In this document: positions 15,237-17,567 of the stretch, piece by piece
Layout of the letters: the number at the start of each line of letters is the position of its first letter
How positions within the stretch are numbered: position 1 is the first letter of the stretch
Source: Minisyncoccota bacterium
Lineage (GTDB): Bacteria > Patescibacteriota > Minisyncoccia > Phycocordibacterales > UBA9973
Assembly (NCBI GenBank): GCA_021734995.1
Contig: JAIPHX010000009.1
Span: 1 to 32,136, forward strand
Length of the DNA: 32,136 nt
Reading direction: 5' to 3'
Position numbers and translations under genes: made by a program
The notes under the pieces: model-generated
What the model was told of the DNA's origin: nothing
The model's input: the letters and a program-made list of their open reading frames with translations, nothing else
The model's database searches: none

Positions 15237-15237
15237 G

Positions 15238-15309
15238 TGCGCGTGCTTGGAATCGGACCAAGGACCTCTGTCTTATCAGGACAGCGTTCTACCACTGAAC
15301 TACACGCGC
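15238..15309 (-). tRNA. tRNA-Ile (anticodon GAU)
   Basis: A complete cloverleaf can be drawn on the minus strand: acceptor GCGCGTG/CACGCGC, D arm GTTC-AGTGGTA-GAAC, anticodon arm CTGTC-CTGATAA-GACAG with anticodon GAT, variable AGGTC, T arm CTTGG-TTCGATT-CCAAG, discriminator A. The CCA end is not encoded (CAA follows), so CCA must be added by nucleotidyltransferase. The D loop is short. It lies upstream of the ATP operon promoter on the same strand. Confidence 0.95.
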
Positions 15310-15420
15310 TTTAACTTGTATAAATAAACTAAATAGCACTTAAATCAGTCCCCTTTTTATACAATCCAAACTATACCAAAAAAAATCTTTTGGAGCAAAC
15401 TACATCCATTACATAAACAC

Positions 15421-15450
15421 AAAAACACTTCCCTTGCGAGAAGTGTTTTT
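15421..15450. terminator. Strong bidirectional intrinsic terminator after the RRM gene
   Basis: An 11-bp perfect stem AAAAACACTTC/GAAGTGTTTTT with an 8-nt loop lies 24 nt after the RRM stop, with T5 on the minus strand. The symmetrical A/T ends make it work in both directions. It separates the RRM gene from tRNA-Ile. Confidence 0.85.
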
Positions 15451-15474
15451 GAATAGAAAGACTAAACTTTTGTT

Positions 15475-15804
15475 TTAGTATTCTCTACGGGATTGGTTGT
15501 ATCCACCAGATCCGCCTCTATTATTAGAGAATCCACCAGTTCTTGGGGGACGATCTTCCATTGGACGAGCTTCATTAACTGTAAGTCTGCGTCCTTCGAA
15601 CTCTTTGTCGTTAAACATTTCGATTGCTTTTGTGGCATCTTCTTGAGACTCCATTTCAACGAAACCGAAACCTTTAGAACGACCGGACATTTTGTCCATA
15701 ATAATAGCGACTGATAATACATTACCAGCTTGACTAAAGTATTCTTTTAAAGAATCGTCTTTAGTAGTGTAAGGGATTCCCCCTACATATAGCTTTGTAG
15801 CCAT
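15475..15804 (-). CDS. Single-RRM RNA-binding protein with Gly-rich tail
   Basis: The 109-residue protein has one RRM (residues 1-82) with RNP2 LYVGGI and RNP1 SKGFGFVEM, followed by a Gly/Arg/Asn-rich tail (GGFSNNRGGSGGYNQSRREY). This is the plan of the bacterial RNP-1 proteins known as cold-induced RNA chaperones in cyanobacteria. The frame extends 11 codons upstream, but the ATG at 15802-15804 follows GGGAG at good spacing and starts MATKLYVGGIPY as the family does. It is monocistronic, with a long leader and a terminator of its own. Autoregulation through the leader is inferred. Confidence 0.92.
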   Translation of the reverse strand: MATKLYVGGIPYTTKDDSLKEYFSQAGNVLSVAIIMDKMSGRSKGFGFVEMESQEDATKAIEMFNDKEFEGRRLTVNEARPMEDRPPRTGGFSNNRGGSGGYNQSRREY

Positions 15805-15812
15805 ACTTGTTT

Positions 15813-15935
15813 CTCCCGTTTTCAAAAAACCGGGCAAAAACTAATTATAATGCTCATAAAAACAGAGTAGACATTCCCCTATTTGAAATGAACGTAGAAT
15901 ACTCTTGCACTAACTTAACTAAATTGTTTGCCCGG
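15813..15935 (-). promoter_or_regulatory. Potential RNA switch in the RRM gene leader
   Basis: On the minus-strand RNA the Shine-Dalgarno GGGAG (15813-15817) overlaps the 3' arm of a hairpin CCCG..TTTT/AAAA..CGGG (15815-15834). The 5' arm of that hairpin is also part of TTTGCCCGG (15830-15838), which is the exact complement of CCGGGCAAA about 95 nt upstream (15927-15935). Pairing of these 9-nt segments would open the hairpin and free the Shine-Dalgarno. Two exclusive states are thus encoded. An additional imperfect stem pairs GAGTA near 15905 with TACTC near 15866. Confidence 0.5.
15844..15849 (-). promoter_or_regulatory. Possible proximal -10 box of the RRM gene
   Basis: A perfect TATAAT on the minus strand would start a short leader of about 33 nt that contains only the Shine-Dalgarno hairpin, not the upstream anti-hairpin segment. 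The -35 region is weak. Confidence 0.35.
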
Positions 15936-15988
15936 AAAACCAAACTTACAATATAAACAAAAGTTATCTTGAGAAACTACTGCGGGTA

Positions 15989-15997
15989 TTATAGCAT
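15989..15997 (-). promoter_or_regulatory. Distal extended -10 promoter of the RRM gene
   Basis: TGC-TATAAT on the minus strand (hexamer 15989-15994) predicts a start near 15982 and a leader of about 180 nt. That is far longer than the leaders of neighbouring genes. Confidence 0.5.
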
Positions 15998-16044
15998 AGA
16001 TTGCAATAAAAAGATAGTCTTGTACAGTTAACAACCTTTACATT

Positions 16045-16311
16045 TTATCTATAAATATCATGATCTCCAACCGATAAGATATATGCTATGTTTTTGTTAG
16101 TTTTTGGATAAGAAAATATTACCCGATACCTATAATTAATATAAAAACTATATCTATCTTTTAAAATACCTTTTAATTTGTGTACTTTTAATTGTTGATG
16201 ATTTTTAGGGTTTTCAAAAGAAGAAAGTTTGTCTAGAACTTCTTCTTGCAAATCGGAACTCAATTTGTTTAATTGTCTAATAAAAATAGGTGCAAAAATA
16301 AGAGTCAGCAT
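16045..16311 (-). CDS. RelE/ParE-superfamily toxin
   Basis: The 88-residue protein has the RelE/ParE fold pattern: an N-terminal strand and two helices (FIRQLNKLSSDLQEEVLDKL), then the core LKVHKLKGILKDRYSFYINYRYRVIFSY and the end GDHDIYR. This pattern belongs to the mRNA-interferase or gyrase-type toxins of type II systems; which activity applies cannot be told from sequence. It starts 1 nt after the antitoxin stop, implying coupled translation. The genes downstream run separately. Confidence 0.88.
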   Translation of the reverse strand: MLTLIFAPIFIRQLNKLSSDLQEEVLDKLSSFENPKNHQQLKVHKLKGILKDRYSFYINYRYRVIFSYPKTNKNIAYILSVGDHDIYR

Positions 16312-16312
16312 G

Positions 16313-16534
16313 CTATTTTATTTTCTTCATTAAATTCCTTGCATCTCCTTTTAAACCTTTCCCCATAGAAATTTCTTGTTCAGCTAATAAAACCTGCCTG
16401 ACTGCTTCTTCTTCACTAGCCATTTTTAAAGCACGACGAATAACATCAGCTTTGTTGGAACCATATCCTGATTCTACTAAATTATTTAAACTTTTTTCTA
16501 ATTCCATTGTAAGTGGCACAGATATAGTACTCAT
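16313..16534 (-). CDS. Ribbon-helix-helix antitoxin (ParD/CopG-like)
   Basis: The 73-residue protein has an N-terminal strand MSTISVPLTMELEKSL followed by two helices with SGYGSNKADVIRRALKMASEEE, the ParD/CopG ribbon-helix-helix signature. The C-terminal part would wrap the toxin. It precedes the toxin, the usual order, and an upstream perfect palindrome is a likely operator for its own repression. Confidence 0.88.
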   Translation of the reverse strand: MSTISVPLTMELEKSLNNLVESGYGSNKADVIRRALKMASEEEAVRQVLLAEQEISMGKGLKGDARNLMKKIK

Positions 16535-16604: not shown

Positions 16605-17567
16605 TTACTCCTCTTCTTCCCCCGTCTCACCAGATTCTAGAGCATTAAAAATATCATACATATCACCTTCCATAATAGCAGGTAGATTGTGCCATGATTT
16701 TTTTAGGCGATGATCAGTAAGTCTGTCTTGTGGAAAATTGTATGTGCGAATCTTTTCACTTCTATCCCCTGTACCAATCTGATCTTTACGTTCTCCTGCG
16801 TATTTTTTAGCTTCTTCTTCTTCTTTCAATTGCTGTAATTTTGCAGTTAGAATATTCATAGCTTTTTCGCGATTGGCTTGCTGACTGCGTTCATTGGTAG
16901 ATCGGACATCTATCCCTGTGGGCTTGTGAATCAACCTCACTGCTGTCTCTACTTTATTGACATTCTGCCCTCCCTTACCACCAGAGCGAGAATATTCCAT
17001 TTCAATATCTGTTGGATTTATTTCAAAGTTTACTTTTTTACGAATAGGTAAAATGGCAACAGAGGCAGTAGAAGTGTGCACTCTGCCATTTTTTTCAGTA
17101 GCAGGTACTCTTTGTACTCTGTGCACTCCTGTCTCATAACGCATTTTTTTATACACATCCTTACCTTTAATTTCAAAACTAGCTTCCCTGTACCCACCAA
17201 TATCATTTTTGGATTCATAATTTACTTTCCACTGCCATTTTTCTGCTTCTGCTAATCTTTCATACATGTGAGCAATCTCCCAAGCAAACAAAGCTGCTTC
17301 GTCTCCCCCTGCTCCTGCTCTTACTTCTAATACAATCTCTGTGGCAATCTCTTCCTCTTCTTTTTCTTTATCTAAGATATCTTGAATTTGTTTTTCTATA
17401 TTCTCTCTTTCTGTTTGCAAACCAAGAAGTTCTTTAGTTGCGAGTTCGTGAAGTTCATCATCACCTCCCATCATCTCTCTAACTTCTGCTTCCTTGCGCT
17501 CTAAGTTCTCCAGCATATCAGCCAGATAACTTGTATTATGATTCTTTTTTAATTCTTCAATATTCAT
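16605..17567 (-). CDS. prfA: Peptide chain release factor 1
   Basis: The 320-residue protein is somewhat shorter than the usual 355-360, mainly at the N-terminal helical domain. It has the stop-codon-reading PAT motif (155-157, in [10 protein letters not shown]), which marks RF1 (UAA/UAG), and the catalytic GGQ (199-201, in [12 protein letters not shown]). It has its own -10 box 6 nt before ATG, after the rpmE terminator. The absence of any TGA stop codon in this window gives RF1 special weight here. No RF2 or PrmC gene is in view. Confidence 0.97.

Follow-up and report, generated by a model that had tools for sequence, protein, structure and literature searches.

A conserved RNA leader in front of Patescibacteria RRM genes and a possible start-codon lock in cells without an anti-Shine-Dalgarno

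The window, a stretch of 32,136 nucleotides, derives from a 0.79 Mb genome whose named close relatives are Candidatus Paceibacterota / Parcubacteria. It encodes a small RRM protein behind a long leader, which raises the question of what such a leader does and how translation begins behind it. Inspection of the letters alone had led to the proposal of a two-state RNA switch, responsive to temperature or protein, that hides or exposes a Shine-Dalgarno (SD) sequence. The view of the long leader as exceptional, structured and conserved is borne out here, whereas the two-state switch, the SD, a second promoter and thermosensing are not. A protein-responsive, that is autoregulatory, role fits the leader best.

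The RRM gene and the range of its leader

The gene and the 5' part of its leader comprise the following features.

15475..15804 (-): RRM protein gene, 109 aa, with one RRM_1 domain (Pfam PF00076, E = 1.8e-22) and a Gly/Arg-rich tail
15420..15451 (-): intrinsic terminator-like hairpin after the RRM gene, consistent with a one-gene transcript
15988..15996 (-): distal promoter, extended -10 (TGC-TATAAT), read directly from the sequence and conserved in leaders of the genus
15971..15980 (-): P1 5' strand, GUAG-UUU-CUC, at the predicted 5' end of the RNA
15894..15904 (-): P1 3' strand, GAG-UAUU-CUAC, pairing with the P1 5' strand
15852..15893 (-): P2, an optional helix with outer stem GUUCAU (15893-15888) / AUGAGC (15857-15852) and, in the window, an inner hairpin

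A same-genus orthologue of the RRM gene is present in most relatives. Among the best solved structures, the matches of the encoded RRM are the RRMs of poly(A)-binding protein, nucleolin and hnRNP A1/A2B1, and its RNA specificity is not fixed by these matches. Between the RRM gene and a prfA-like RF-1 gene (16605-17567), the window has a HigB-like toxin gene preceded by a small gene that is likely its antitoxin (16045-16534, minus strand); many congeners have the RF-1 gene directly upstream of the RRM leader. The RRM gene is followed by a tRNA-Ile gene (15237-15309, minus strand), and a tRNA within about 250 bases downstream was also seen in several congeners (e.g. L004, L008, L016, L018, L023 and L026).

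Conservation of the leader is evident from the sequences upstream of 50 orthologues. When 12 leaders were used to build a covariance model, it gave about one strong match per genome across 80 genomes of the genus, ending at the start of the RRM gene. Six genomes without a usable match also lack the RRM gene, and in the seventh without a leader (G075) the RRM match spans residues 25-109 only. With this model no other gene carrying the leader was found in the genome itself (next match E about 1), nor any convincing second gene within the genus.

The distal extended -10, correctly recognised in the original prediction, is conserved: among 70 leaders of the genus the -10 is found in 66 and the TGn in 48, mostly with 6-7 nt between the -10 and an invariant GTAG. 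The RRM mRNA would begin at about 15980 and carry a leader of about 176 nt. In 71 leaders of the genus the GUAG of P1 is invariant and its outer helix is 100% paired. P2 is a fold prediction; a helix occurs at the same place in 35 of the 71 leaders, with a swap test z of 10.3.

At its promoter-proximal end the window has the P1a/P1b elements of an order-wide leader, GUAG/CUAC and CUC/GAG. Beyond the genus P1 is kept as a 5' strand (e.g. GUAAG or UCGUU), UUCUC, a variable loop, GAGAA, GGUCG and the complementary strand, from which about 20-30 nt lead to the AUG in order-level leaders. The MAFFT alignment around P1 is too poor for a covariance model at this level; anchor-based swap tests and an exact pattern took its place. 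Swapping halves among 60 order-level leaders gave z = 7.2 for P1a and z = 2.6 for P1b. About a dozen of 31 type-I leaders also have a pseudoknot between a strand before CUUAC and a strand about 12 nt downstream, with the compensatory variants CUAGUC/GACUAG, GUAGUC/GACUAC, CCGGC/GCCGG and CCGACA/UGUCGG (swap z = 4.8). Named carriers of the leader are Falkowbacteria, Uhrbacteria, Jorgensenbacteria, Zambryskibacteria and Shapirobacteria. RRM leaders with P1 and GGUCG, a subset of them with the H-type pseudoknot, were seen in other families and classes (L119-L180 and L227-L266).

A strict pattern of the commonest form had 8 matches in 197 genomes of the order and 1 in 380 genomes of the phylum; it misses most leaders, and these counts therefore measure specificity, not frequency. 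By coordinates, each of the 8 order matches directly precedes an RRM gene; the ninth has the same sequence as the leader of the L156 RRM gene. As a control, the reversed pattern gave a single match in the phylum sample and none in the order sample. Linkage to RRM genes is exclusive in these searches.

The conserved or covarying GGUCG and pseudoknot of the order-level leaders could speak for a riboswitch-like element, in which another ligand, a metabolite or a protein, binds the internal loop of P1 (GGUCG, or the pseudoknot in relatives). The GGUCG and the pseudoknot strand have, however, been lost from the genus of the window, which has UAU/UUU in that place, and no gene other than the RRM gene was found linked to the leader. 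We regard this explanation as very unlikely. No Rfam family (release 15) matched the leaders of the genus or the order. RRM genes of Betaproteobacteria have a different conserved leader (TCAGTTTCGCG ... CTCCATCGC or CCCCATCGC ... GGAGTCC; L194, L196, L200-L209, L212, L214, L215, L219, L221, L222 and L224-L226), in which an upstream strand seems able to pair with the SD arm.

P3, the linker and the question of a Shine-Dalgarno

Three further features belong to the leader.

15810..15840 (-): P3 hairpin, UUUUU-G-CCCG...CGGG-AGAAA, covarying, and originally taken for an SD hairpin
15841..15850 (-): near-invariant unpaired linker UUAUAAUUAG, a candidate RRM binding or ribosome standby site; it contains the TATAAT once proposed as a promoter
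15927..15935 (-): CCGGGCAAA, the proposed long-range arm, whose end closes a local hairpin GUUUG/CAAAC

The local hairpin at 15840-15810 that buries GGGAGA was rightly predicted, and covaries strongly in the 71 congeneric leaders. For its four inner pairs both sides have changed in 25, 10, 12 and 29 sequences, and 98.9% of the helix cells pair; 0 of 500 shuffles matched. Since the alignment of the 71 leaders was fitted to structure, an anchor-only swap test independent of this alignment was added for P3; native arms paired better than exchanged arms (z = 9.6).

The long-range arm behaves differently. In the window, 15927-15935 and 15830-15838 are exactly complementary over 9 bp, but elsewhere only L004 and L097 have a matching complement, and compensatory changes are lacking. 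The expected pair of exclusive, conserved pairings is therefore not seen, one arm being confined to three leaders of the genus, which is the outcome that the original proposal had named as refuting it. A swap test over 26 long-loop leaders gave p = 0.11, and 0.51 without the window, L004 and L097; the upstream extension is missing altogether from many leaders of the genus. Forcing the long-range state costs 5.9, 4.9, 4.3 and 3.1 kcal/mol at 5, 15, 25 and 37 C, respectively. Nor would it expose the SD-like strand as claimed, part of which re-pairs elsewhere in that state. No conserved alternative fold was found.

The buried GGGAGA had been described as a real SD. The 16S rRNA of the same genome ends in ...GTCGTGGAATAATTCAATT, its 3' end reading GTAACAAGGCACGGCTAGCGGAAGCTGGTCGTGGAATAATTCAATT followed by TGAAAC, and contains no CCTCC. 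The CCUCC anti-SD is likewise absent from four congeners and, in other families of the order, from five members whose 16S ends can be read. Tails of this kind, e.g. GGAAUAAUUCAAUU and GGAAUAUUUCAAAU, were seen in the genome itself (L283, C8:60863-62440) and in L276-L282, L284 and L285. SD-like sequences are rare, as had been noted: they are absent from 28 of the 30 genes of the window, and an SD-like 4-mer precedes only 3 of 76 long genes of the genome (about 110 kb). With a 16S rRNA lacking the anti-SD and SD-like 4-mers this rare, GGGAGA cannot be an ordinary SD. Nor does the altered 16S tail (GGAAUAAUUCAAUU) appear to pair with the leader, the native value being 10.2 and the shuffled value 12.4. 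A survey of 16S tails reported that organisms without an anti-SD also lack recognisable SDs, its list of such organisms being concentrated in Bacteroidetes, Tenericutes and Proteobacteria (PMC6107228). Most CPR bacteria lack Era, which binds GAUCACCUCC (PMC10582724), and we infer that the missing Era is linked to the missing anti-SD.

P3 is nevertheless constrained. Its purine arm drifts (GGGAG, GAGAG, AAGAG, AGGAAG) while the pairing is maintained, which together with the missing anti-SD argues that the constraint is not that of an SD cover.

The linker UUAUAA.UAG is unpaired in the 71 leaders of the genus and shows 92-100% identity at all but one position; with the U strand of P3 the conserved unpaired motif reads UUAUAAnUAG-UUUUU. 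The second promoter proposed at 15844 finds no support in this conservation, the best hexamer being exactly TATAAT in only 23 leaders. By inspection, no -35 accompanies the proximal TATAAT (15849-15844). Relatives have TATAAA, TTTATT or TATAAG in its place but keep the UUA and the UAG, and the proximal promoter was rejected. A hexamer that drifts between a fixed UUA and UAG is read here as an RNA motif and not as a -10 box.

A stretch that is both unpaired and almost unchanging suggests sequence-specific recognition. In most leaders the linker reads (A/G)U1-2AGU followed by U4-5 (AUUAGU, AAUAGU or GUAGU), which is the pattern given for Musashi-type RRMs, whose targets are (G/A)U1-3AGU and UAG (PMC12342889). 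Within the genus the UAG reading is weak, since the linker is nearly invariant there and enrichment says little. Linkers at the order level contain 60 UAGs versus 28 expected from shuffling and 39 under a dinucleotide model, and apical loops of the order-level leaders have no such excess.

Closure of the start codon by codon choice

Two hairpins lie at the start of the coding region.

15787..15806 (-): P4, the start-codon hairpin GUAUGGCU-ACAA-AGCUAUAU; the start codon is 15804-15802
15769..15786 (-): P5, hairpin GUAGGGG-GAAU-CCCUUAC in codons 7-12, a predicted fold whose pairs persist in most of the 72 sequences compared

The occlusion that matters most affects the start codon itself and falls outside the stretch covered by the original prediction. 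P4 (AUGGCU-ACAA-AGCUAU) spans codons 1-6, and five of its pairs are identical in 72 of 72 sequences of the genus. The evidence for P4 is of the synonymous-conservation type, with no compensatory change. In the 72 sequences the mean share of the major codon at synonymous sites is 0.92 for codons 2-9 versus 0.74 for the rest, and K4 AAG and L5 CTA are used in 100%.

Folding predictions, which treat the RNA alone, without proteins, ribosome or co-transcriptional order, put the RRM start region (-30 to +36) at -21.9 kcal/mol; the 84 ORF starts of the same genome have a median of -3.9. The RRM AUG is the least accessible of the 84 (0.9% unpaired versus a median of 44%). One other ORF start has a like energy; it is an internal ATG, the listed ORF starting upstream with TTG. 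As a control, codons 2-12 were redrawn from the synonymous usage of the genus in the RRM gene. Over 71 relatives the AUG is unpaired in 1% with native codons versus 38% with redrawn ones, and every native value is below its control median. By these predictions, the choice of synonymous codons closes the RRM start codon in this genus.

Order-level leaders show no start-codon occlusion (0.37 versus 0.44, 62 of 103). As it is not found outside the genus, the occlusion is probably a later addition, and the halves of the leader may differ in role.

Temperature does not appear to open the start. The AUG is predicted unpaired in 0.1% at 4 C, 1% at 37 C, 2% at 45 C and 5% at 55 C; in the model, the start codon is closed from 4 C to 45 C, contrary to the suggested thermosensing, and opening of only 5% even at 55 C argues against melting as the trigger. 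The idea of a thermometer or two-state switch in which the long-range pairing controls access to an SD can point to an exact 9-bp complement in the window, but this pairing is limited to three leaders without covariation, is disfavoured by 3-6 kcal/mol with the site still partly paired, would act on an SD in a cell without anti-SD, and comes with no predicted melting below 55 C. It is highly implausible.

The leader might instead stabilise the mRNA, P1 and the hairpins protecting the message and the AU-rich linker being a nuclease site shielded by the RRM protein. A nearly invariant P1 at the predicted 5' end and a linker that is AU-rich and unpaired agree with this. We consider it rather improbable, as it leaves unexplained why codons 2-6 are chosen to pair with the AUG.

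A putative mechanism and its relation to known systems

The reading that we favour, with a confidence just short of even, is a default-closed initiation region at which the RRM protein negatively autoregulates, the linker being a shared site of entry and binding. The region would be closed by default, with P1 at the 5' end, P3 just upstream of the start, P4 on the AUG and codons 4-6, and then P5; the UUAUAAnUAG-UUUUU between P1/P2 and P3 would stay unpaired. In a cell without anti-Shine-Dalgarno, initiation should depend on local openness, and the gene would be locked unless something opens it. The unpaired stretch would most likely serve as the entry point from which a 30S subunit reaches the AUG once P4 opens, or before P4 forms. 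When plentiful, the RRM protein would bind the same UAG/U-rich stretch and shut initiation. Established here by computation are the helices, the conserved linker, the closing of the start by codon choice, the missing anti-SD and the exclusive link to RRM genes, whereas the transcription start, standby role, protein binding and sign of regulation are inferred.

The opposite sign of regulation, a self-activating or chaperone-dependent switch, is unlikely. Here the RRM protein or a helicase would bind UAG-UUUUU, strip the U5 strand from P3 and open the start, for example in the cold. The U5 strand, adjoining the UAG, pairs with an invariant AGAA(G) of P3, the default state stays closed at every temperature modelled, and the cyanobacterial protein Rbp1 is needed for adaptation to cold (PMC9333190). 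On the other side, a second conserved pairing that could form an open state is lacking. Autoregulated RRM proteins are moreover negative regulators as a rule.

Several known systems share parts of this arrangement. Bacteroides RbpB and the cyanobacterial rbp genes likewise encode single-RRM proteins, but a structured leader with an occluded start codon was not found described for them in the literature searched. RbpB binds its own mRNA (PMC11697453), whereas binding of the protein to the leader of the window is putative. Musashi-1, in an engineered system, represses translation in E. coli from RUnAGU sites near the ribosome binding site (PMC10942595). The linker is similar, with AUUAGU, AAUAGU or GUAGU in most leaders; that repressor is engineered and acts in an SD-using host, whereas the RRM leader is natural and belongs to a cell without anti-SD.

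The MS2 coat gene also has its start codon in a hairpin beside an unpaired entry stretch. Ribosome standby there works with an SD, whereas the RRM leader operates without an anti-SD and its hairpin is maintained in a family of chromosomal genes. Like RNA thermometers and the cspA leader, the RRM leader is a structured leader near the start of an RNA-binding protein gene, but it has neither predicted melting in the physiological range nor a conserved alternative fold.

A literature search of incomplete coverage returned no description of the RRM leader or of anti-SD loss in Parcubacteria, either of which may be reported elsewhere. On this basis the leader is of an undescribed kind, and probably a means for the RRM protein to regulate its own synthesis. 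The wider proposal, that a phylum-scale, undescribed family of cis-regulatory RNAs fronts the RRM genes of Patescibacteria and here forms a start-codon lock operated by the RRM protein without an SD system, is put forward tentatively, as something less probable than not.

Patescibacteria are mostly uncultured, and how cells lacking an anti-Shine-Dalgarno select and regulate their start sites has yet to be worked out. A start lock made by codon choice and tied to one RNA-binding protein across the group makes this question directly testable with short RNAs and a protein of 109 residues. If the proposal is true, the leader would be among the very few natural RRM-based translational controls in bacteria.
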